Part shown: piece after piece, positions 22,144 to 43,894 of the stretch | Numbering within the stretch: position 1 is the first letter of the stretch | Layout of the letters: every line of letters begins with the position of its first letter | Source: Eremomyces bilateralis CBS 781.70 | Lineage: Eukaryota; Ascomycota; Dothideomycetes; Eremomycetales; Eremomycetaceae | DNA length: 64,000 bases | Reading direction: 5' to 3' | Assembly: GCF_010015585.1 (NCBI RefSeq) | Contig: NW_022985070.1 | Location: 1,314,970-1,378,969, forward strand | Notes under the pieces: generated by a model | Databases searched by the model: none | Seen by the model: only the letters and a program-made list of their open reading frames with translations | What the model was told of the DNA's origin: nothing | Position numbers and translations under genes: made by a program

Positions 22144-22950
22144 TATGACTTTTGTTCCATTGAAGGATGGTAAACCCGATAAATAAAAGAAATCGGACGA
22201 CTGGACGGTTGTTAAGAGGATGGGGAGGCAAAGGGGGATGGTTGAAGATGAAGTGGAGAGTGGTTAATGGTGTAATAAAGTGGTTGATAGCTTGGATGGA
22301 CCTTTATTGGTTGGAAACGCGAACACGAAGGAGAGAGAGGTTGGAGCGTTGAGGGGACGTGACGCGCCGCGTTGGAGTGGAGATGTCGGCCTCAGGCTGT
22401 AAGGCTGTGAAGGTTAATATGCACAGCCACAATATCAAGTGTTGAGCCACTGAGCATGGGTGCCCCTGCTCTGCCCTCCCTCTACTAGGGTGGGTGAAAG
22501 ATTTCAATGAAATCTATTGCTCTTGTAATTTTCATGAAAGATTTCCGGAGGTCTGGAAATATTTCATGCCAAGCTTTCGTTTACTAATTTGGATGGCGGA
22601 GATAGAGTTAAGATGGTGAGATTTTGAGGAATTTCACGGAGTTCGGTTTTGATGCCTAAGGCTGCAAGGCACCAATATTTAATCTAACCAAGCCAAAATA
22701 GGACTAGCGTAAATTTCGGAAAGAAGCAATTTATATGCGTAATTTAAATTCTATCAGTCATCCGAAGAAATATATATAAATTACTGAAATTCAACCACCC
22801 TACCCTCTACCATGAAACTCTTGCACCGCCACTGCAGCTTCTGCCACTCTGCTCCGCTACAGAAAAATTTCGAGTTCACGTTTGTTTCCAGCCCTTAAAC
22901 CAATATTACGACAGAGATATCTCGGGTCTACCAATTGGTTCTAGTACGCC
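22144..22950. promoter_or_regulatory. divergent promoter CDT2 / RRP5, invaded by a MITE
   Basis: 807 bp between divergent starts, of which 317 bp is a hAT-type MITE. AAATTTCG occurs at 22865-22872, 79 bp before the RRP5 start codon, and a second time inside the MITE at 22711-22718. Confidence 0.6.
22486..22802 (+). mobile_element. hAT-type MITE, copy 1 (317 bp)
   Basis: The element begins TAGGGTGGG and ends CCACCCTA, forming short terminal inverted repeats. It is flanked by a perfect 8 bp target duplication CCCTCTAC (22478-22485 and 22803-22810). An 8 bp duplication and TAGGG-type ends are typical of the hAT superfamily. It has no coding capacity. An internal hairpin lies at 22533-22568. The perfect duplication and near identity to copy 2 suggest a recent insertion. 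It ends 148 bp before the RRP5 start codon. Confidence 0.9.
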
Positions 22951-30041: not shown

Positions 30042-31317
30042 ATGCTGGGCTTCATGGACTACATTCAACATGCCTTCCATCTGGCCTCACAATGGAACAG
30101 TGACAACTCATACAGTTCGCTGACGGCCTCAGCACGAGGTTTGGTTTCTCGGGACGTCTATTCAAAAGTACACGTGCTGACGGATCCTGGGAAGACATCT
30201 TAGATTTTGACATCCCGCGAGGGTTGCGGTTCAGCGTCTCGTCTCTTTCGTCCCCCAACTTCGCGAACTCCTACACCTTCGGCACGAGCGGCGTCGTCGA
30301 TGGCTCACTTTCGTACCTCTACTCGTCCTTGCCCTTGCAGGTCGCGTCGAGAAGCAAACACATCGATCTCACGGAGCTGATCCGTGGCTATCGTCATGTG
30401 TTAGAGCTGCGCCGTCCCGATAACCCTTGGTGGTGGGAGACCTGGCATCGAGGAAAACGGGTCGACCGACTAGGTGCGTATTTCGCTATGGACAACACTT
30501 ATACGCGCTTCTGATGGTGAAGGAAGCGACCCTATTGTATGGCCGACTCTACGTTCCCGCGTCGAGACTCGAAGCGCTATATCTCCGCCGGATTTCACCG
30601 ACGCGTCAAGTGCATCTTTCCTGCGTCAGCGACGAGCGACTGCAGAACGGAGGAACCATATTGGCCCTCCTGCAAGACGATCGGGCCAAGTCCTCGACCG
30701 AATACCTCTTCAGCACCGATAGCGCCCTGCTCGGGGTCCGGGGCCTGTACAATTTCGGCCCCGATCCACGATCCTCGACATTCCCTCCCAATCTTCTCAG
30801 TCGATTCTCGGTAGGCGGAGAGCTCTATTATGGACTTCTGAACGCTTCCGGAGGCTGCTCCACTGGGCTCCGCTTCACCACTCTGCCCGCACATGCGGGG
30901 TTTCCTTACACCATGACGCTGACTTTGAACCCTCTCATGGGGAACCTCAGCTCTACCTATTCAGTTAAAGCCGGGAGAAATCTGTCCATGTGCAGTCGGT
31001 TTGATTTCAATTTCTACAGCTACGAGAGCGATTTTGTGGTTGGCTGGGAGGTCTGGAGAAGGCGTGCGCGCCCGATGGAGTCAGCATCTGACCGGTTGGC
31101 AGAAGACGTCCTCAGCAAACCAGTCCCAACCCTGCGGGATAAGGAGGACGATGTGGAGGGGGTCCTCAAAGCTCGCATTGACCAGAACTGGAGGATTGGT
31201 CTCCTCTGGGAGGGGCGGATCAAGGAACTCCTAGTGACACTAGGTGCGAGCATCGACCTACGGAATCGCGACCAAATTGCGAGGTCCGTTGGCCTGGAAA
31301 TCCAATATTCTTCTTAA
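30042..31317 (+). CDS. MDM10: Mdm10, mitochondrial outer-membrane beta-barrel of ERMES
   Basis: Three exons, 30042-30138, 30195-30473 and 30527-31317, encode 388 aa. The start [12 protein letters not shown], the block [15 protein letters not shown] followed by [11 protein letters not shown], and [20 protein letters not shown] and [10 protein letters not shown] are all Mdm10 signatures. Mdm10 is a 19-strand barrel that anchors the ER-mitochondria tether (with Mmm1, Mdm12, Mdm34) and also binds the SAM complex to help assemble Tom40. Intron 1 begins GTTTGG, a weaker donor, but is required to avoid a stop and to give [12 protein letters not shown]. Intron 2 uses acceptor GGAAG. It is somewhat shorter than Aspergillus orthologues, probably from shorter loops. 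The TIR-bounded NLR segment starts 115 bp downstream. Confidence 0.88.
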
Positions 31318-31432
31318 TGAAGATGAAGAGAACCCGAACCGAGAAGGGGCGGCTTTTCTACAGCCCTGGGAGAACAGCTAACAGATCCTTCCGCTGAATC
31401 ATCATAGTGTGCGCTCCTTTTCAAAGGGGCTA

Positions 31433-31920
31433 ACCTCCCCCCCTGCGTGATGGAACGCCCGCTGTGCTGGAACGAATTCGAGGTACTTTGCCTTCAACCC
31501 CACTCAGAGGCTCTATGGATATTGTACTTCTTATAAATCCTTATAAAATCTGTTTCCCGGCCCATCTTAAACATATGAGACGGCGTAAACCATAAAAATT
31601 ACGATTGCGTGGTCACCGGTCGGCCAATTTCGGGGCAGCACTCGGAATGCATCTTCGACGCTGAGATACTATGCCTATGCTACAACGCCACCATCATCGT
31701 AGTTTCTTTTCAAAAAGCCATAAACGAATGATCCTAAATCATATAATCCCGTTGTAATGCTAGAAGTCCTTTATCCAGAGCATGCGTTGTGTTGGAAGCG
31801 ATCTTAGATATTTCGACCATGCAGGTCGGTACTAGCAGGCGATCGCACTTCCTCTTTCGGCGACCCATACAGTCATGGGGCTATTATATAATAACTAGTA
31901 CATTGTAAATTACAATGACC
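31433..31920 (+). repeat. left terminal inverted repeat (~488 bp)
   Basis: Pairs with the reverse complement of 35619-36103 along its full length. The best-conserved stretches are the outer ~80 bp, GCAGCACTCGGAAT, the block around AGAAGTCCTTTATCCAGAGC, and CACTTCCTCTTTCGGCGACC. No open frame is visible. Confidence 0.88.
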
Positions 31921-32407
31921 TAACATGTCTCCCTAATGATGGCCTTGGCAGACTAACGCTCTTGGGTGTCACTAAGTGTCCCTGTGTGAAGGAAACCAGC
32001 GTGAACTGTGAAGGCAAGCACCAGACCCAAAACTTGAGAGTCAGCGTAATGTATGAATTTGAACGACCAGCCACATGTCCGAGTTTCTCGATGACTCTCC
32101 GTCTGAGACGATCTTAAACAGATGTTAGCCGTGTGCATCCTCGACTTATCGACATAATGTGCCAACTATGGTTGACGAAGACATGCACCAGAGAGGATGG
32201 AAGAGAGGCGTTGCAGACCGTCAGGCTCGATAAGCCACAACTCGGTGTCGCTCAGCCTTGTATAATCGAAACCTCCGCAGCCTTGTGCCTGATCACATTG
32301 TTCATCGTCGTCTGTCTTGATGTGCCAGCTACTATGTGGTTCGAATTTCCCAGACCAGGCGTCACGATTTCTCGATAACGGCGATCTGTCGATTCCTGCG
32401 ACCAACG
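31921..32407. other. NLR 5' region inside the TIR-bounded segment
   Basis: 487 bp between the left inverted repeat and the NLR start codon. No other gene is supported. The region upstream of 32408 is open in the NLR frame back to 32336, but family conservation favours the start at 32408. Confidence 0.5.
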
Positions 32408-35360
32408 ATGCGCCTCTTAAAGCTCGACGGCAACGGCGAGTTCAGCCTGGAAACATTCCAAACCACGATCCCTCCTTATGCCATACTTTCTCATACGTGG
32501 GGAAGCGACAGCGATGAAGTCACATTCAAGGACGTCACGGATAGTGCCGGAAAGCAGAAGGTTGGATACCAGAAGCTGGTATTCTGCGGAGGTCAAGCGA
32601 AAGCTGACGGTCTATCCTATTTCTGGGTGGACACCTGCTGTATTGACAAATCGAATAGTACCGAGCTGGCAGAGACGATCAACTCTATGTTTCTCTGGTA
32701 CCAGAATGCCGCACGATGTTACGTCTATCTATCCGATGTTTCGGTACGCACGCCGGACGGTCTAGTGTCTCATATCGAATGGGAATCATCCTTTCGTAAT
32801 AGTCGATGGTTCACACGAGGATGGACGCTCCAAGAGCTTGTCGCGCCGAAAACCGTCGAATTCTATTCCCGAGACCACGTCCGACTAGGTGATAAGAAGT
32901 CACTCGAACGAAGCATCTACGATAGAACTGAAGTCGCTATCGAGGCACTCCAAGGCCGTTCGCTTTGTGATTTTAGCATCGAGGAGAGGTTTCAATGGGT
33001 TAAGAAGCGACAAACGACTAAAGAGGAGGATATGGCATACTGCCTTCTTGGGATTTTTCAAGTCTTCTTACCGCCTATTTATGGCGAAGGGCGAGAGCAT
33101 GCAATAAGAAGGCTGCGACGAGAGATCGAGGACTCCGAGCACAACAGCTCGCGTCCATGTAGGACCTTTGATTTCGAATGTGCGTATCTCTTTGCTAATG
33201 TGCTCCATTTTATAGCGCGAAAGTTGGCACGTACTATCTCTTTCGACCGCAATCCTCGCTTCACCGGTCGCGAATCCGAGCTTTCTCGAATTGAGAAGCT
33301 ACTCTTCCGACATGGCCAAACCACGAAGGTCGCAATCACTGGACTTGGGGGGGTGGGGAAGACGCAGTTAGCGATTGAGATAGCCTATCGGATCACGGAG
33401 AAACAGAGGGACCGCTCAGTATTTTGGATTCCTGCGACCGATCCTGAAACCCTTCTTCAGGCGTACTCGGCAGTAGCCGAAGAGTTAGATATACCCGGAA
33501 GAGATGAGCAAGGAGTAGATGTGAGGCGACTGGTTCAGAAATACCTCAGTAGCGAAGGCGCGGGCCAATGGCTCATGGTGTTTGACAACGCCGACGACAT
33601 GGATATGTGGATGGGAAAATCAACCGCTAGGCAATCTATCCGTCTCCTCGACTGCCTTCCAAGGAGCAATAAGGGAAGTATCCTCTTTACGACGCGAGAT
33701 AGGAAGCTCGCTACTAAGCTAGCGCCTCAGAACTTGGTAGAAGTGCAGGAGATGAACCTAGAGGCGGCTTCGGAGCTCCTGCAGAAATGCCTGAACGGAC
33801 TCGATATAGCGCCCTACCAAACCGCAACCGAAAACTTGCTTACGCAGCTGACTTACCTTCCGCTCGCCATCGTTCAGGCGGCAGCGTATATTAATGCGAA
33901 CGGCATCTCGATCGCGGACTATCTTTCCTTACTCGATGAGCAGGACGAGTCTATAATTGAACTTCTAAGCGAAGACTTTGAGGATAACGGCAGATACGAT
34001 AATATCAAGAACCCAGTGGCCATAACATGGCTAATATCGTTCGAGCGAATTCGGCAGCACGACTCCCTGGCGGCAGACTACTTATCGCTAACAGCATGTG
34101 TTGAACCAAAAGAGATCCCACAGTGTCTTTTTCCACCTGGTCCATCTCGCAAGAAGGAGACAGACGCTATCGGGACGCTTCATGCGTATTCATTTCTTAG
34201 CAAACATCCGGCCAGACTTACGGTCGATCTTCATCGTTTAGTACATGTAGCTGCTCGTAATTGGCTCCAAGAGAACGATCAACTGGCCCAGTGGACCGAA
34301 AAGGCAATTGTGCGACTAGAGGAGATTTTTCCGGATAATACCTACACGAACCGTAGCATATGGAGGGCGTACCTGCCGCACGTGCGCGTTGTGCTGCAGT
34401 CTGACTTCGTCCGGAAGGATTCGAAGAGGAGGATAGATCTCCAATGGAGATATGGAACGTGTCTTGACGCCGACGGACGATGGAGTGAGGCAGAGATTGC
34501 GTATTCCCAGGTGCTCGAAATAGAAACGGGGTTGCTCGGCACAGAGCATCCAGACACGCTGACCAGCATGGCCAACCTGGCGTCGACGTACCGGAATCAA
34601 GGCCGATGGAAGGAGGCCGAAGAGCTGGANNNNNNNNNNNNNNNNNNNNNNNNNNNNNNNNNNNNNNNNNNNNNNNNNNNNNNNNNNNNNNNNNNNNNNN
34701 NNNNNNNNNNNNNNNNNNNNNNNNNNNNNNNNNNNNNNNNNNNNNNNNNNNNNNNNNNNNNNNNNNNNNNNNNNNNNNNNNNNNNNNNNNNNNNNNNNNN
34801 NNNNNNNNNNNNNNNNNNNNNNNNNNNNNNNNNNNNNNNNNNNNNNNNNNNNNNNNNNNNNNNNNNNNNNNNNNNNNNNNNNNNNNNNNNNNNNNNNNNN
34901 NNNNNNNNNNNNNNNNNNNNNNNNNNNNNNNNNNNNNNNNNNNNNNNNNNNNNNNNNNNNNNNNNNNNNNNNNNNNNNNNNNNNNNNNNNNNNNNNNNNN
35001 NNNNNNNNNNNNNNNNNNNNNNNNNNNNNNNNNNNNNNNACGCTGACCAGCATGGCCAACCTGGCGTCGACGTGGAAAGCGCAGGGTCGAGATACAGAGG
35101 CTGTAGGTCTAATGACGGAGTGTGCATGGCTTCGAGAACGGGTGCTAGGGGTTAGCCATACGCTGACCAGCATGGCCAACCTGGCGTCGACGTGGAAAGC
35201 GCAGGGTCGAGATACAGAGGCTGTAGGTCTAATGACGGAGTGTGCATGGCTTCGAGAACGGGTGCTAGGGGTTAGCCATCCGTATTTCATTTCTTCCTCG
35301 AATATGTTGGCGGACTGGGAGGCAGAACAACGAGGTGCTCGCACTGACACAAGCCACTAG
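32408..35360 (+). CDS. NLR-type protein with HET, NB-ARC and TPR domains (assembly gap inside)
   Basis: The start MRLLKLDGNGEFSL is the usual beginning of HET-domain proteins. HET motifs follow: AILSHTWG near residue 25, FWVDTCCIDK near 75, and RGWTLQELVAP near 145. An NB-ARC domain has its P-loop GLGGVGKT at 312-319, a Walker B-like LMVFDNADD and LPLAIVQAAAYI. TPR repeats begin near residue 700 (EHPDTLTSMANLAST...). Positions 34630-35039 are undetermined bases, so the reading frames on either side are not comparable; after the gap the correct frame ends in TAG at 35358-35360. In fungi, HET-NLRs (HET-D/E, VIC genes) sense nonself and trigger incompatibility cell death; repeat units vary rapidly. 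The role here is inferred from architecture. Apart from the gap, no disruption is visible. Confidence 0.85.
34630..35039. other. assembly gap, 410 undetermined bases
   Basis: A run of N falls inside the TPR array of the NLR gene. Identical repeat sequence on both sides suggests the assembler could not resolve the array. True length and repeat number are unknown. Confidence 0.99.
35040..35279 (+). repeat. two 120 bp TPR-coding tandem repeats, essentially identical
   Basis: Units 35040-35159 and 35160-35279 match at every base I compared except possibly the junction base. Each codes for 40 residues starting TLTSMANLASTWKAQG. The first ~35 bases also occur unchanged before the gap (from about 34556). 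Canonical units in this family are 42 residues; the junction lacks the two residues that normally follow SH. Such identity points to recent duplication or gene conversion, or to an assembly error at the gap edge. Confidence 0.9.
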
Positions 35361-35618
35361 GATTGTTGTGGCTGGAGGGCACAATTTTAAAAGACAGAAT
35401 ACCTCTCAAATGTATGGTGAGATGATCGCCAAGCCCTTCTGAGACTGTTAGAAAGTCGAAAGTCTTAAAAATTTGGCCAGCGAATCTCAGTAGCTGTGTT
35501 TCTCCACACAGGGACATTGTTGATGTTCCTGGGTTGGCACCCTCAGCCCATTCTCAGGGACACCTTGCGACACCCAAAAGGGTTAGTCTGGCAAGGCCAG
35601 GATTAGAGAGTCCGGCGA

Positions 35619-36103
35619 GATCATTGTTATTTACGATGTATTCTTAATTATGTAATAGCCCTGTGACCGTATAGGTCGCCGAAAGAGGAAGTGTGATCGG
35701 CTGCAAGTACCGACCTATAGTGGAAATGTTTGAAATCGCTTCGAACACAACGCATGCTCTGGATAAAGGACTTCTAACATTAGAACGGGATTTTATGGCT
35801 TAAAGTGATTTATCTTATGACCTTTTGAATAGGAAATATGATGGTGGCGCTGTAGCATGGAAATACTGTCGCGGCGTCGACGATGTATTCCGAGTGCTGC
35901 GCTGAAATATGCTGATCGGCGACCATGCAATTGTAATTTTTACGTTTGACAAAGTCCTAGATGTTTAAGAATGGCTAGAAAATCTATTCTATATGAAATC
36001 ATAAGAATTACAACATGAACAGAGCCTCTGAGCGGGTTTGAAGTCAAAGTACCTCGATTTTGTTCCAGCACGGCGGTTGTTCCATCACGCAGGGGGGGAA
36101 GGT
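35619..36103 (-). repeat. right terminal inverted repeat (~485 bp)
   Basis: Reverse-complement partner of 31433-31920. It starts 258 bp after the NLR stop codon and ends with ...CATCACGCAGGGGGGG and AAGGT, next to TA. Confidence 0.88.
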
Positions 36104-36105
36104 TA

Positions 36106-37453
36106 CAGCTTCCTTCACCATTCGAAAAACCAGGAACTGAATTCAGCGTCGCTCATCTCCACGATTGTTCCTGCAGGAGCTCATATGAATTTCTGATCGT
36201 TTAAGACGCACATGTCACATTTGCACAGACAGACAGACAATGTTCCATTCCCCATGCCGCGATCTTAAATTAGAATAATAGAAGACATGAAGGCATGGGA
36301 TGGCCAATCAAGTCGTTTCAATATATTGCGTTTCCCGATCCCGTTCGCTCAACCTGGCACAGATCCAAGTGCAAGTCAATATAGACAAGGCCTACGTCGA
36401 CATTGACAGAAATTACAGCCCTAATAGTTGACATTTAATGATCGACGTCACCGAACCGATGCTTGACTTTCCCGAGGATAGGGCAACGCATGCAGGAAGT
36501 GCCTCATCAATACAGCCGTGCGTCCGCGAATCAATTTTCCCCCTCCAGGAATTTTTGGTCTCACTTTCTGGTCGTTGCTTTGCATTGAATAGGCTGTAGA
36601 TCCATTGGACCAGGCTTTTCCGTTCAACCGTCGTACAGCAGTGAGATTATTGCTGCTGGCAAATGTGAAATGGTGCCACAACAGGACTGGGATATATACG
36701 GTTGAACCCTTAACTCCAACCGGTTTTCTGTCAAGTGTCAACAACACTCGCTCGTGGTTCCCTGCGAATCACCGCGGCTTTCATTCATCCTCAGAGCCTC
36801 AAGACCGGAGGCGTGTCCCCATTTGCATTCCAGGGTTCAGCCATGGCTTCTCATGACACCAGGCATTCTCCGTCTTTCGGTGTCCATACGTGCCCAGGTT
36901 TCATACAGCAAGGGCCAACGCACTGAAAACCGGTGCATGAAGGAATTTGATACCGGAGGGCAAAGGTGCCAAGTACTCGAAGAGACCGGCAAGGACAATA
37001 TATGGGCTTGGGATTCAATGACACGTATCTAAGCTTGGCCATCTGACTTAGCAGGTCCTCACATTCGATGTTCAGCTCAGTGAGCTCACAATCTCAGAGA
37101 CCCTCCATGGCAGGTCAGACTCAAGAATTTATCCCGTCGGAAAGGTAGTGTAGGTATGCCAGCTACAGTTTAGATTCAGTAATACGGTAATCAGGAGGCG
37201 TATTCAATTGTCAGGCTGCTGAACCAGAGCTACTGTCCTCGTCTATCACGAAAGCAAGGCGGCGATTAGTCACATCCCTAGCTAACCAGCTATCCCCGCG
37301 TAGGGGTCATTGCAGCGGCTTGGAAGTTGGAGCCCATTTATGATGGAGCGTTGGGCGATTCGCCTTATCCTGGAATGTGTTGTCGTTGGGCCAGGCCGAA
37401 AGCAAGGCAGCAAGAATCCAATAGCATTCAACCAAAACTAGGTCCCCTACATG
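36106..37453. other. gene-poor region
   Basis: About 1.35 kb with only short frames (under 100 codons) that show no family features. No RNA gene was recognised. Confidence 0.5.
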
Positions 37454-37770
37454 TAGGGTGGTTGAATTTCAGTAATTTATATATATTTCTTCGGATGACT
37501 GATAGAATTTAAATTACGCATATAAATTGCTTCTTTCCGAAATTTACGCTAGTCCTATTTTGGCTTGGTTAGATTAAATATGGGTGCCTTGCAGCCTTAG
37601 GCATCAAAACCGAACTCCGTGAAATTCCTCAAAATCTCACCATCTTAACTCTATCTCCGCCATCCAAATTAGTAAACGAAAGCTTGGCATGAAAGATTTC
37701 CGGAGGTCTGGAAATCTTTCATGAAAATTACAAGAGCAATAGATTTCATTGAAATCTTTCACCCACCCTA
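37454..37770 (-). mobile_element. hAT-type MITE, copy 2 (317 bp, opposite orientation)
   Basis: Same length and nearly the same sequence as 22486-22802, but inverted. The ends are TAGGGTGG and CCACCCTA. Flanks CCTACATG (37446-37453) and CGTACATG (37771-37778) form an 8 bp target duplication with one mismatch. Besides single-base changes (for example CACCAATATT versus CACCCATATT), the loop of the internal hairpin is inverted relative to copy 1. It is non-coding. Confidence 0.9.
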
Positions 37771-40700
37771 CGTACATGGGAGAGAGCAGTCCCTTTTGAC
37801 CGGTACGGCCCGGAAGATGTCGATTGACTTAACGCGTGTCGTGCATGCGCCATGGCGTCCCTTCTCCCTAGGGGAGGATTGTGAATGTTTTGATACTTGA
37901 GCTCTAGAATCTGGATGTTCAGGAACAGTCGATCAACCCTCGACGGACTGGTTCACTGGTTCACTGGTTCGGTGGCGGACGAGCCTTAACGCAAGCTCCG
38001 ACCAGGAGTCGATTCATATCCGCCCCAGCCACCGGATGGCGCGTTGGCGACACGACTTGATTTCTTGATCATGGCATATACCACGGGAGCGCTAGTGATC
38101 GAGCATGCCTCGTTCCACAAAGCGTATCGATGTCTCAACTCTCAAGGATGAAGGTCAGAGAATGGAGTGATCGATTCGTCATATGGCGGACCCGGGACCA
38201 CTGACCAGCCACCGTGTCTTTTCTTCCACCATCCTGAGTAGCCACGGAGTCATGACGATCTCAATGGGAAAGGCATCCGGTTAATAGCGGCGTGCCAGCT
38301 TCAAAGTGGATTATCGCTTGTCAACGGCGGAATGGCGGCGATACAAGCCGCTGATGACTTTGTGTATATGTGCCACCCTCTCAGGTCGGCGTCCCTCAAA
38401 AGTCAAACCCAATGAAAACAACATCCCGGAATATATTTCGCGCAAATTTGAGACGTCTTGTTCCCGATAGAGTGGGGGTTTTCAGCTTTAAGCGCTATCT
38501 TCGAAAATCCATCCCTCACCTAACACCTTTCATGAGATTCCCGCAGGAGGGATGATGCTGCGGTATACCGGGTCAAGGTCTAGTAGAGTTGATACCATCT
38601 CAGAATGGAAGTCCGATGCCACAATTTATGACATGCCCGGACTTCTCTGCTTCAAGGCTTCCAGCACCCCGCAATATCGTCATCCGTAGTCCGTCGCACC
38701 CACGTTTCTTCCGTGCTCAAGACCTGCCAGGCTACCATGCAGCGTAAAACTGTAAATGGTAAGGATATGGATCACCTAGACTATCAGACGTGGACCTGAT
38801 GGCTGACTGCCAATATCCTTGCTTTCCTCGTGGACTGGAGGCATTATTTAAAGGGATTGCCCCTTATCAATCTGTGCACTGGTTGAGGCGACAGTCGGGC
38901 TTCTGCAGGCCGTAAACTTGGACAATACCCAGTCGCACAGGAAAACAATGGGATGGTGTCTTCGGACATGATGTTTTTCTTCTGCCAGGAGAACCCACTG
39001 CTCGTATGAACAGCTAGGGCTCGTCGGATCGGTAGGAGTCTCCAGGCGTGCTCGCACTCTCGCCGTGCACGGCATATAATAATAACCACGAGGCGGTAGG
39101 TCGTCTGAATGTGGACTCTCGACTATGGTCGTACAAGCGGCAGGAGATGATCGGTCGGCAAGATGGTGGTGGCTGGACTCCTGGTCGGTTGTCATGCTCA
39201 GAACAAAGGGGCTGTCATCCACCATCAGAAGTCCGTACGGAGCCGTGTCGTAGAGTCAGCAAGGTCAGCAACCGACCAGCGAACACCTCAACATCCCACC
39301 AGATGTTCTTTGTTGGCCTTTTGGTTAGCGGGGGCATTTTTCCCTGGTCCGCATGTTCAAGCAACTGACACAGGGGCTTACCCTACAGCCCTTATCCCCG
39401 TGCTACCATCGACGCGTCTTAGACTCCAGGTTGAGCGGGGCATGATTAGTTTCTTACGGCATCAAGCAACACAAGTCGTGATCAAGTAATAACAGGCTGA
39501 CCTGACAACGGGCTGATAGTCCGTCAATCCGTCCGACATTTTGGCCGGGATTTTCGAGCCTTGGGAACGTTCAGCCTGCACAGTGCACACATTCCTTCAC
39601 TGGCGCAGGAAAGGTCCCAGAGGGCGGAGATGCAGGGCATGGCTGGCGGCTCCCGATGTACGCAACCGGCAGTTCCGGGACCATGCCTAGGCCAAAAAGC
39701 TGGTCCTGCAACGGTCCGGATCTGGGTTCGGAGGAGTTCTAAATTCAGACAAGTCAGCTCCTCAGGAGGACGGGAGAGAGCGTTACGCTGCATGGTGCAG
39801 GGACCAGGACGGCCGATGGATTGATATGGGAGGATTGGATTTTAGAGATGCTCGATCCGATGTCGGTACTGAGGCTTAATTATTTCGTTGTTGGTACTGT
39901 GAACGGGTGTAGAATGATTGCCTGTAGATTTTGGTACCTGATTATTACCATAATCGCTGGCTGAATTATGAATTGATGATGGTAAGAAAGATCAGCGGCC
40001 TGGATGGTTCCCTGCAATAGCTAGGTGGTTTGGTTGTTGGATGACTGCATCAATCCGGATTCGTCCCTGGTCCTCCCCAGCTTCGTGTCGATTATTATTG
40101 GTTACGGTCATCGACTCTCAGACTCATCGTGCTGTCCGCTCGTCAGCTGCCTGTCACGGTTGGAGAATTTTATTCGGAGTTTGCTGATCGATCAGATGTT
40201 GTTGGGGCAGTGGCAGCTGGCGGTCCACCCTGTTGTCCATCTCCCGCGCAGTCTCGTTTGGTTCTGACTTCTGAGGGCGTGTGCTTGAGCTCGTTCGCGC
40301 TTCGCGTCCGCGGCGTCGCACAGGAGGAGCGGCAACTAACAGCTCTCATGTTTTAGTTTTCCCTTACCAACAAGTGCAATGCGTGTGCCAGGGGCTTCCC
40401 TGCACGATCCGTTCGTTACACCAAAATCGTTCCACTAACACTGGGCCGAACTTGAACTGGCGAGACCAGCAGAGACTCGGTGAAGTGTGGACCCGAAGTT
40501 AGACTGGTTGGAGTTTAGTGAGGGCTCAGTTTGAGAGTTTAGGCTGTTTAACAGAGGGAGCCCACTCCGGCGCTCCAACGGCCCTCGCACCACCAAAGTC
40601 CACGGAGCGTCCTGGATGTCTGCACTGGAGCAGACCGCCTAGACCGACCGCCCAAACGTACCGCCTTAACATACCGTCTACCGCCTAGACAGTGAGTAGA

Positions 40701-41751
40701 CACACATCCCTGCACGGCTGCACCCACACATACCCACCGACCAGACAATACTACTCACCGTCTAAACCCCCTGTAGTACAGCCAGTAGCCCCCAGTCGCA
40801 TACCGTAGCTTGCACCAGATCTGCCTCGTTCCCTACCGATCCCCCTACTGGCCCCAGGCCACACTGCTCAAAGTTGGAGAGCAGTTCCCTCTTCCCGAGA
40901 CACTAAGACTCCAGCTCCACCCCCTTGTCCCTTTAAAGGCCCTTAGTTACTGAGTACCCCTGATAGGCTGCTGTCTGATACCCTCAGTCCAGTCCCTGGC
41001 AGTCGGCTCCCTCCTCTGCCGCTCTTCTGCGTGATCCTCTCCCCGTCTCCCGTTCCCCGTGCCTCCTCTGATCCTCTCCCACACTCCCACCACCTCCACT
41101 AACCTCTCTCCCTTCGTCTCCTCCTAATCCTCCTCACTTCACCTTTTTCCCGTTATTCCTGTACCTCCACCCCCTCAACTTGCGTCTCGACGCCTTGTCG
41201 TTCCTTATTCCCTTTTTTTCTTAACCCAGTGCTACATCACTGTCACTCCTTTTCCCATCTTTTTTCCAATCCCCTTCGAGAGACTTGCGGGCGTCATCGA
41301 CCTCCCCGTTCCCTTTGAAGGCCCATTTTCGCGGTCGTCGTCACTCCTTTCGACGCCGCCTTTTCCTCTCCTTGTTTGGCGTACGCCAGTCCGTTCCTTT
41401 GTTCTCATCTATCCAAAGAATCCCCTCTTCGACTCATCGGCTATGGCCTGATCCCATCATCTTTCTTCCCGCGGCTACTAGTGAGCCTCGACGATCCTTT
41501 CCGACTTTTTGTTCTGCAATCGCCTGGGCGGTGCTGCTTCGCTTCCCTCTCCCGTACCTCACCCTCCTTTAAGCCTTCGGTCATCGAGGCGCAACAAAAA
41601 CAGTTCAACTCTTCCATTCTTTTTCATCATACTACCGTTTACACTCCGTCGAACGAACGTACCACAAACGAAGGTCGGCGATCCCTCGACCGCGACTCCT
41701 CCACGACTCACCCCTCCGTACACCGCACCAGGTCTTGGCACCTCCTTCGCA
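37771..41751. promoter_or_regulatory. long gene-poor region and 5' leader of the homeodomain gene
   Basis: Nearly 4 kb without a supported gene. An 8 bp unit ACTGGTTC is repeated three times at 37947-37970, and a 13 bp degenerate repeat lies at 40634-40692. From about 40,900 to 41,750 the strand is strongly pyrimidine-rich (CTCC, TTCC runs), typical of a fungal promoter and long 5' leader. Long upstream regions are common for developmental regulators. Confidence 0.5.
40634..40692 (+). repeat. 13 bp degenerate tandem repeat
   Basis: Units read ACCGCCTAGACCG, ACCGCCCAAACGT, ACCGCCTTAACAT, a shortened ACCGTCT and ACCGCCTAGACAG. The constant part is ACCGYC. It lies about 1.1 kb before the homeodomain start codon. 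Confidence 0.8.
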
Positions 41752-43894
41752 ATGCAAGAAAGCTCCATCGCCATGGTGCAACCAAGCGATGGGGCAAAGG
41801 CTCTCTCTGCTTCCCCAGCGTCCACGGCGGTTTCAACCCATACCCCAGGCTCGGCACCGCGTCGACCTCCGCGTAAAAGCACCTTAACGCAGCAGCAGAA
41901 GAATCAGAAACGACAACGCGCAACTCAGGATCAACTCATCACCCTCGAAGTCGAGTTCAACAAAAACCCGACTCCCACCGCCATGGTGCGGGAACGCATT
42001 GCACAGGAAATCAATATGACCGAACGCTCCGTCCAGATTTGGTTTCAAAATCGGTAAGTTGGGCTGACTCGTGGACCTGCAGAGCCCTGGCTGACATCGG
42101 AATAGACGAGCGAAGATCAAGAATATTGCGAAGAAGAGCATCGAAAACGGGGAGGATTGCAACGATATCCCGGAATCCATGAGGCGATATCTCGCTCTCC
42201 AGGCAATGGAATCCGGTAAGTCTCTTGTGGGTCGGGACCTCCTTGGCCGCGGTCTTTCGTACGGGAATGGGCTCCTGCTCAACACCGAAACAAGCTCGAG
42301 CAAAGTCGGTATGTACTTGATCAGGGTTCTCTTCATTTATCAAATATTAACTGAGCTAGTCATCCACCATCTACATTGTCGCTCCCTTACCATCGGTTCA
42401 TGGCGTCGAGTTGGCCAGACCGCGATGGACCTCGTCATATTCTACTCGCCGGAAAAACGATGCGTTACATATTATATCAACAACGATTCGGCCGGCTACA
42501 AGATCGAATATCCTTTCAACGCGATCAAGAACATCTCGCTGGAAAGCGGAGATGCACTGAGCGCGGAGGGTGCGTCACAGCGCCCTGGAGGTCTCATCGT
42601 GGAGTTGAATCGTCCTCCCAACTTCTTCATGGACTCCTCAGGCTCCGGAGGCTTCTATCAATGTGGTGATTTCACAGAAGAGCAGCAAGCCTCCCAATGT
42701 CTCGCCCATCATCTTGGTGGCCATCCCAAGGTTCTCAGCGGGCAGTTGGCCAAACTGGTGTCGCTCGAGTCTTTCCAAAGCCGCTTCCAGACTTTCGACC
42801 CGAACGGCTTGACCGTATCCGCTCCCGTATCCCCCATCGAACATCGTCCCGCTAGCCAACCGAACCATTTCGCGCATCCGCATATGAACGGGTTCCAGGA
42901 ATCGCAGTTCGCACCGAACCTCCTCCACCCAGGACGTGGCCACAAACGACAGCGAAGCCGGTCCGTACCAGCCGCCATCGACTTTTCCATGATTCGGCAT
43001 CCCATGCCCAGCTTCCTGGTCCACCAACAGCAGCATGTTCCGTCGCCTCTGCATCAAGTCCATCCAATCGCGCCGAACCAGGGGAGTCCATTCGTCCCTC
43101 CCCAGAACCTGTTCGCGCCGGTTCCTCAGCACGCCTCACCTTCCCCGTTCCCGAACGCCGGATTCGGTCCTCCTTTGCAGAATCATCACCCTCAAGGGCC
43201 ACCGAATGGTCTATCCATCGACACGACGGCAGCATCCCCGATGGGCCAGTACTCGATGGACATGCGCGCATACCCCATGACAGCCACCACTGCTCCTTCG
43301 CCGTCCGAATTCGGCACGCCCGGGTTTTTCCCGGTGTCGGGACCGCCGGGACCGGATGCAATGCAGACCGCTCCCTTCAATCAACCATTCTCCGGCCCGC
43401 CTCAGAACCCGCAACCTATCCCCGCCCAAGTCATGACACCCATGAACGAACCCACGATGCACCACACTCCGCTCCCCGACTCCACGCCTCAAACTACGTC
43501 CATCAGCCCCATGGCCGGCGTCAGCCAACCAGTCCAGCCCCCACAGGAACAACAAAGCCAACCGTACGGCGTTTCGAACCCCGTCATCGCGACCCACTCG
43601 CCCCCGCTCGGCGCACTCGGTCGCTCCGCATCAGCGGATTTCCTCGTGGGGGCTCTACCGGAGGACGGCTCGGGGTTGCAAGAGGAAAATTTTCTTTCCA
43701 ACGATTTCTTCGGGTCCAAAGGCCAGGGCGTCACGTTGCCCATTCGCTCGCCCTTCATCGGGCATAACAGCCCGTTCAGTGCGAACGATGGAAACTATAG
43801 CTCTGGGATGGGAGACGATGATGGCTTGATGATGGGACTTGGGGAGCCGCTGGACGACGGCGTGCCTGGATTCTGGGGGGACGGGGATAACTAG
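41752..43894 (+). CDS. homeodomain transcription factor (Pho2/Phx1/Htf1-like class)
   Basis: Three exons, 41752-42053, 42106-42308 and 42360-43894, encode 679 aa. The homeodomain covers about residues 51-110, with recognition helix [16 protein letters not shown] (WFQNRR at 97-102); intron 1 splits the Arg101 codon. A conserved fungal domain follows: [19 protein letters not shown]...[10 protein letters not shown]...[25 protein letters not shown]. The rest is Pro/Gln/His-rich, like an activation region, ending in an acidic tail. Proteins of this layout regulate phosphate response, stationary phase or conidiation in various fungi; which applies here cannot be told from sequence. A longer in-frame start at 41509 adds residues that look like translated leader and is rejected. 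Confidence 0.85.

Follow-up and report, generated by a model that had tools for sequence, protein, structure and literature searches.

A 4.67-kb unit of Eremomyces bilateralis DNA, in which two long inverted arms enclose a single NLR gene, was characterized within a 64-kb stretch of sequence (the window). We propose that it is probably a non-autonomous cut-and-paste element with Tc1/mariner-type ends, probably pogo/Fot1-like, in which one apparently intact NLR replaces the transposase and which was inserted at a TA near mdm10. The insertion site would be located between mdm10 and a homeobox gene, ~115 bp 3' of the mdm10 stop codon. A transposase encoded elsewhere in the genome would have bound the end repeats, excised the unit and pasted it at a TA. 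The cargo would work as a usual nonself sensor, with the TPR array sensing, NB-ARC switching and oligomerising, and HET triggering cell death; thus, with each jump a further locus would gain a complete sensor gene. The original prediction of a transposon-like unit with an immune-type receptor as cargo is partly supported, by the arms, the TA borders, the NLR as sole recognised gene, the lack of a recognised transposase and the 17-bp repeats at the ends; with one copy known, its mobility is putative. The features of the unit are as follows.

31431..31432, no strand: left TA border, putative target duplication (border scan)
31433..31984, + strand: left terminal inverted repeat arm, extended match to 32000 (arm alignment)
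31441..31474, + strand: left-end pair of 17-bp direct repeats in tandem, 13/17 identical
32001..32410, + strand: sequence between left arm and NLR gene (5' flank), without recognised coding sequence
32411..35360, + strand: NLR gene with HET, NB-ARC and TPR (open frame and domain matches)
34630..35039, no strand: gap of 410 N within the TPR array
35040..35279, + strand: TPR unit as an exact 2 x 120-bp tandem copy at the gap edge
35509..35554, - strand: 46-bp difference of the right arm with TGTCCCTG bounds, absent from the left arm
35555..36103, - strand: right terminal inverted repeat arm, extended match to 35493 (arm alignment)
36060..36093, - strand: right-end pair of 17-bp direct repeats in tandem, 14/17 identical
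36104..36105, no strand: right TA border (border scan)

Inverted arms and outer borders

The arm cores lie in opposite orientation and align with 441 of 547 aligned bases identical and four gap events. The score of this alignment (651) is far beyond chance, as 300 random comparisons within the window gave scores of 37 or less. The pairing of opposite repeats around the gene was correctly predicted; the predicted lengths of 488 and 485 bp were not, the cores being 552 bp (left) and 549 bp (right). The match extends into the unit up to 32000 and 35493, respectively, if the 46-bp difference in the right arm, which is bounded by an 8-bp direct repeat, is allowed. With up to three mismatches allowed, the window contains two matches to the outer 19-mer (0.03 expected); both are exact, one in each arm, and they are in opposite orientation.

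The inner ends of the arms bear on a quite improbable alternative, namely that one ~550-bp element was inserted twice independently in opposite orientation, flanking a resident NLR by chance, and that the two copies possibly became able to move together later. Another short unit, MITE-like and 317 bp long, does occur twice in opposite orientation in the window (at 22486 and 37454), and a TA at 35491-35492 directly adjoins the inner limit of the extended right arm. However, the terminal 19-mer has no copy at the inner arm ends, even with three mismatches, and therefore each arm does not seem to be an element of its own. Moreover, a TA is lacking where the left arm ends internally and where the right core does, and both cores end at the same internal point in the gapped local alignment.

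On the outside, the inverted repeat ends at a TA on either side, in agreement with the original prediction. When 24 borders were scanned for target duplications of 2-12 bp, this TA was the sole candidate at the arm ends; two further 2-bp matches are located 14-15 bp inside the arms. No target duplication of 7-12 bp passed at these 24 borders, with one mismatch allowed from 7 bp and two from 9 bp. The TA may be present by chance, or the ends may be TAACC without duplication.

The outer 44 bp of each arm contain the two tandem 17-bp repeats, and an offset of 17 was the best among offsets 8-29 within the outer 48 bp. Among random stretches of the window, 34 of 19853 reach 12/17 identity at this offset and 116 of 4965 reach it at any offset of 12-25. 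A separate gapped test of the end repeats against 991 random 60-mers gave P values of 0.027 (left) and 0.005 (right). Since the arms are homologous, the 17-bp repeats count as one observation rather than two.

An inverted segmental duplication, in which repair placed a reversed copy of a non-mobile ~550-bp stretch on the far side of the NLR gene and the TA edges are coincidental, is an unlikely origin of the arms. It would agree with the single copy seen, with the weakness of TA as a two-base criterion, and with the conservation of the outer bases, which is not significantly better than elsewhere in the arms (P = 0.13, 0.07 and 0.06 for 26, 42 and 75 columns). It would also agree with one gapped local alignment that continued ~40 bp beyond the TA to a common CGCTGAAT. 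Nevertheless, the tandem 17-bp repeats at both outer ends match a reported architecture of transposon ends, and similarity between the flanks is inside the random range. Outward from the TA, the flanks match at 8 of 30 ungapped positions, and their local scores were not significant (P = 0.13, 0.34 and 0.53 for 50, 100 and 300 bp, with 1000 random pairs each). Apart from the single gapped alignment, the flanks do not significantly extend the inverted repeat past the TA.

The NLR gene and other coding content

The HET/NB-ARC/TPR protein named in the original prediction is the only gene recognised between the arms, and its domains were matched in this order: HET (E = 2.2e-12), NB-ARC (E = 7.2e-12) and TPR_12 (E = 2.7e-12). 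By analogy, it would act in nonself recognition and cell death. The arms are separated from the gene by 410 bp of non-arm sequence on the 5' side and by 132 bp on the other side. The frame, predicted to be open, is so for 739 codons from the ATG at 32411 to 34627 and again after the gap, from 35040 to 35357 with the stop at 35358-35360, and 410 N of the TPR array are unreadable. The segment 35040-35159 is repeated exactly at 35160-35279, adjoining the gap, so that the end of the TPR array is possibly misassembled. A possible in-frame intron of 57 bp, judged by eye, is located at 33159-33215. A foreign origin of the gene on the grounds of codon use was rejected, as its RSCU distance (0.342) and GC3 (0.556) are both inside the ranges of eight other reading frames (0.196-0.501 and 0.504-0.693, respectively).

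The original prediction saw no transposase, and none was matched by Pfam in any of the 28 stop-to-stop frames of at least 40 aa listed for 31433-32410 and 35361-36107, that is, outside the NLR. The sub-threshold matches in arm and border frames, FtsK_gamma (E = 0.0008, 19.5 bits against a cut-off of 30.6), Phage_phiJL001_Gp84_N (E = 0.052) and Zf_2nd_IFT121 (E = 0.066), are taken as chance. NCBIfam gave nothing above its cut-off and only weaker matches to bacterial proteins. A coding origin of the arms was likewise rejected, as their mismatches are spread over the codon positions (36, 38 and 39) and no Pfam match reached the cut-off. A Starship was rejected as well: its tyrosine-recombinase captain (DUF3435, a family that we take to be included in Pfam-A) was matched neither by the frames of the element nor by 39 of the 44 window frames of at least 170 aa, the other five crossing the gap; this test covers the 64-kb window, and a wider Starship would reach beyond it.

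Divergence of the arms and the open NLR frame

The arms are ~20% diverged; the NLR frame is nonetheless open. Assuming that the arms started out identical and already enclosed the gene, ~10 stops would be expected under neutrality in the readable 2217 bp, and none was observed. The suggestion that the gene was kept after mobility was lost is conditional: an unbroken frame of this length is unlikely under neutrality only on that assumption, and the gene could just as well have been under selection during a mobile phase of the unit.

The same divergence, together with the open frame, would suit an ancient element of the fold-back type, whose two long arms are now decaying relics and in which the NLR gene arrived later and was never mobilised; the non-arm sequence on both sides of the gene is also consistent with this very improbable scenario. 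On the other hand, nothing in the sequence dates the gene relative to the arms, and fungal transposons with gene cargo are documented.

RIP was rejected as the source of the arm divergence. Of the 547 sites, 59 differ by a transition and 47 by a transversion. The gapped alignment that includes ~40 bp of flanking sequence has 62 transitions, of which 15 are in CpA/TpG context, although this context does apply to 6 of the 12 C-to-T differences in which the left arm has the T. Judged by the RIP index thresholds, the arms gave no signal in the composite index, which is negative for them as well as for the gene and its neighbours; TpA/ApT is 0.88 and 0.81 in the arms and 0.60 in the window. As for sub-structure in arm conservation, window variance gave P = 0.34, and the longest identical run of 33 bases gave P = 0.042 (2000 shuffles).

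Comparison with known mobile elements

Mutator-like elements produce target duplications of 8-11 bp, and a Mutator-like (Pack-MULE) unit was rejected, as no such duplication was present at the 24 borders. The literature comparisons below refer to excerpts of the cited papers. A hAT element with gene cargo was rejected on the same scan, which lacks the 8-bp target duplication of this superfamily (PMC6710886).

The Tc1/mariner assignment agrees with the terminal inverted repeats required of a member, with the TA expected on both sides (a candidate duplication in a single copy), and with the two 17-bp direct repeats, which are reported for some fungal members and are not defining for the whole superfamily. 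The DDE/D transposase of such elements was not recognised in the frames of our unit and would be supplied by a partner with the same ends. In the fungal families described in PMC2836289, TA duplications occur in 6 of 8, and ends of 42-49 bp with two 17-bp direct repeats are found. Trem, Aft1 and Tan1 share the TA borders and the two 17-bp end repeats with our unit, a likeness of described end architecture rather than of a letter-by-letter comparison (PMC2836289). However, the Trem consensus is 1.85-2.3 kb long with 42-49-bp ends and transposase frames, whereas our unit has 4.67 kb, ~550-bp arms and no recognised transposase (PMC2836289). Such arms are long for fungal Tc1/mariner elements, for which excerpts report ends of 36-70 bp and 42-49 bp; Minos and the ciliate Tec elements are described with ends of several hundred bp. 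For Sclerotinia Tc1/mariner ends, the excerpted text states that direct repeats were not found.

NLR-type cargo on fungal mobile DNA is already known from ToxhAT and Starships. ToxhAT is a fungal TIR transposon with a patatin-TPR gene placed by its authors in the NLR family, but it has 14 kb, 74-bp ends and several genes, compared with one recognised gene in our unit (PMC6737239). Starships of filamentous ascomycetes also carry NLR or HET/NACHT cargo, but are very large and possess a captain (PMC12134995, PMC9594970). In Pyrenophora tritici-repentis, hAT and Tc1/mariner elements, including a non-autonomous form, hold a non-transposon gene between their ends ('transduplication'), as here; their cargo, however, is a histone H3-like or other frame and they have many copies (PMC3538342, PMC6710886). 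The HET/NB-ARC/TPR architecture is also given for Botryotinia fuckeliana in PMC4986451, which describes no transposon flanks as judged from its main text, where 'transpos' occurs 0 times.

A small element with a single NLR was not found among the matches listed from titles, abstract beginnings and excerpts of the open-licence PubMed Central literature. If our interpretation is true, a unit of exactly one NLR between mirrored transposon-type ends would be a simple way for nonself-recognition genes to move, simpler than Starship or ToxhAT cargo, and transposition of single sensor genes would be directly testable in fungal genomes via these ends. This touches on the multiplication and dispersal of NLR and het genes in filamentous fungi; in Sordariales, an excerpted study reports that the number of NLRs is not strongly linked to repeat-control mechanisms (PMC12258605). 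It can be speculated further, as a rather unlikely extension, that there is a family of small non-autonomous transposons with a complete NLR as standard cargo, in which new loci for nonself recognition arise through movement and TPR-array recombination; a copy already in place could then defend its own element, as fusions with strains that are devoid of this copy or possess a different allele would be killed.

Searches outside the window gave no match in viral contigs for the terminal 19-mer or the NLR protein, and none in the viral or prokaryotic collection for a 26-mer from the arms. The single match of the terminal 19-mer in prokaryote genomes, in a WOR-3 MAG, is taken as chance, with about two exact matches estimated for 257 billion bases on two strands. 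Among the literature matches listed for the end sequence is a mosquito paper.

Inverted arms and their borders

The element, a 4.67-kb unit (31433-36103) in which an NLR gene lies between inverted arms, is located in the interval from mdm10 to a homeodomain gene and starts about 115 bp past the mdm10 stop. The window also encodes myo-inositol-1-phosphate synthase and an L10P-like ribosomal protein; with the genes listed below, among them the HET-domain NLR of the element, these make it look like the DNA of a filamentous fungus.

Features of the window
22486-22802, + strand: MITE-like unit, 317 bp
From 23463: RRP5, with S1 domains and with HAT repeats to 28433
30104-31317: MDM10
31433-31984, + strand: left arm of the element
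32411-35360, + strand: NLR gene
35555-36103, - strand: right arm of the element
37454-37770, - strand: MITE-like unit, 317 bp
41485-42054: frame of the homeodomain gene

The two arms are identical at 441 of 547 aligned bases, with four gap events and a K2P distance of 0.227. Their alignment score of 651, against at most 37 among 300 random comparisons, confirms the inverted repeats noted around the NLR gene. The right arm contains 46 extra bp (35509-35554) that are absent from the left arm and are edged by an 8-bp direct repeat, TGTCCCTG; this difference may reflect either a small insertion with target duplication or a microhomology deletion in the left arm. When it is allowed, the match extends to 32000 and 35493. 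Where this longer match ends inside the right arm there is a TA (35491-35492), a point for a less likely alternative to a single mobile unit, two chance insertions.

Outward of the arms, both sides share a TA, followed by 8 of 30 ungapped matches. Local similarity scores of the flanks at 50, 100 and 300 bp are within what random sequence gives (P 0.13, 0.34 and 0.53); the inverted repeat does not significantly run on past the TA noted at each outer border. One gapped alignment reached about 40 bp beyond the TA, to CGCTGAAT common to both sides; the flank test gives this match no support beyond chance. A less likely alternative is that the arms are an inverted duplication. A scan of 24 border positions for duplications of 2-12 bp (one mismatch tolerated from 7 bp, two from 9) found three exact 2-bp matches, TA alone at the arm ends, and no candidate longer than 2 bp.

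End repeats and probable transposon class

At its outer end, each arm has two tandem 17-bp repeats within 44 bp (13/17 identical in the left arm, 14/17 in the right), and when offsets from 8 to 29 are compared over the outer 48 bp, 17 gives the best match; these repeats were counted with the precedent of Trem already known. Among random window stretches, 34 of 19853 attain 12/17 at offset 17, and 116 of 4965 do so at any offset of 12-25. A gapped test against 991 random 60-mers gave P values of 0.027 and 0.005. Since the arms are homologous, the end repeats count as one piece of evidence, not two. The cited passages on Trem, a fungal Tc1/mariner element, describe TA duplications and ends of 42-49 bp made of two 17-bp direct repeats, as in Aft1 and Tan1 (PMC2836289). 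The 17-bp repeats are the chief new support for assigning the ends to the Tc1/mariner type.

The chief misfit with fungal Tc1/mariner elements is arm length, the ends reported in the cited part of a Sclerotinia study being 36-70 bp, with direct repeats not found there (PMC4188875). Ends of several hundred bp are described for the non-fungal Tc1/mariner elements Minos and Tec in the cited part of PMC7325037. The long arms could also, less probably, belong to an old fold-back relic.

The original prediction that no transposase is visible in the element held in 28 of 28 stop-to-stop frames of at least 40 aa overlapping 31433-32410 and 35361-36107, all compared with Pfam. Sub-threshold matches were to FtsK_gamma (E 0.0008), Phage_phiJL001_Gp84_N (E 0.052) and Zf_2nd_IFT121 (E 0.066). 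Neither a transposase nor DUF3435 was found in 39 of the 44 window frames of at least 170 aa (the NLR frame being covered up to the N gap; the other five cross it), nor was a transposase found in further shorter frames outside the element.

A transposon remains the likely reading of the element, whose mobility is putative. A transposase from a partner element would bind the 17-bp repeats and move the unit into a TA next to mdm10, which we infer to be the most likely course.

The NLR gene and its history

From the ATG at 32411, 739 codons read without a stop and encode HET (E 2.2e-12) and NB-ARC (E 7.2e-12) domains and the first part of a TPR array (TPR_12, E 2.7e-12). On inspection by eye, the Walker A motif (GLGGVGKT) and the HET motifs are apparently intact. 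Among proteins of solved structure, the NB-ARC part is related in sequence to the plant NLRs RPP13-like 4 (6j5t) and NRC1 (6s2p), and the TPR part to kinesin light chains and further TPR proteins that are light-chain-like, among them 4y6c, with the shortened name 'ANSERINA PUTATIVE KINESIN LIGHT chain'. In HET-NLRs, the TPR array senses the ligand, NB-ARC oligomerises and HET triggers cell death; by analogy, the NLR of the element would be expected to behave likewise.

The TPR array is split by a 410-base N gap (34630-35039), after which two exact copies of a 120-bp unit (to 35279) precede the stop at 35360. The assembled gap length breaks the reading frame, which is meaningless if that length is an estimate. 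The TPR_10 model of 42 aa corresponds to 126 bp, 6 bp more than the exact copy; because of this and its position beside the gap, the duplication may be an assembly error, or else a very recent change of the array. For WD40-type NLRs, the cited part of PMC12222747 reports that short-read assemblies recover near-identical repeats unreliably.

Codon use of the NLR gene is inside the range of eight other frames. If the arms were once identical with the gene already between them, neutral evolution at half the arm distance would predict, over the 2217 bp that can be read, about 9.8 stops and 8 indels. No simulation out of 2000 at this distance was free of stops, and stop-free outcomes made up 0.5% at a quarter and 12% at a tenth of the arm distance. 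Therefore, either selection acted on the gene during the divergence of the arms, or these already differed when the gene arrived or when this copy was inserted; the data prefer neither. Between the arms there are 59 transitions and 47 transversions; in the gapped alignment, which includes about 40 bp of flank, 15 of 62 transitions are in a CpA/TpG context, with no general CpA bias; RIP is thus an unlikely source of their divergence.

Other elements in fungi and in the window

The patatin-TPR gene of ToxhAT, assigned to the NLR family by its authors in the cited part of PMC6737239, provides a precedent for an NLR-type gene on a fungal TIR transposon. Cited passages also describe Starships that sometimes contain NLR or HET/NACHT genes (PMC12134995, PMC9594970), and hAT and Tc1/mariner elements with genes in Pyrenophora (PMC3538342, PMC6710886). 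What would be new, if confirmed, is the combination of a single NLR with long arms and Tc1/mariner-type ends in a unit of 4.67 kb; no comparable small single-NLR unit was found among the open-licence papers listed, which leave aside fungal genomes and most of the subscription literature.

On its right side the element is followed by about 5 kb (36106-41300) that contain a MITE-like copy and are otherwise possibly gene-poor; 6 of the 11 frames of at least 90 aa listed there have no Pfam match above the cut-off. This copy and its counterpart are 98% alike, in opposite orientation, with ends TAGGGTGG..., and no autonomous partner was found in the window frames scanned. In contrast to the TA at the element, the pair shows a clear duplication: judged by eye, each copy is flanked by an 8-bp repeat, exact at one (CCCTCTAC) and 7/8 at the other (CCTACATG/CGTACATG). 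The pair points to a short non-autonomous element that moved recently.
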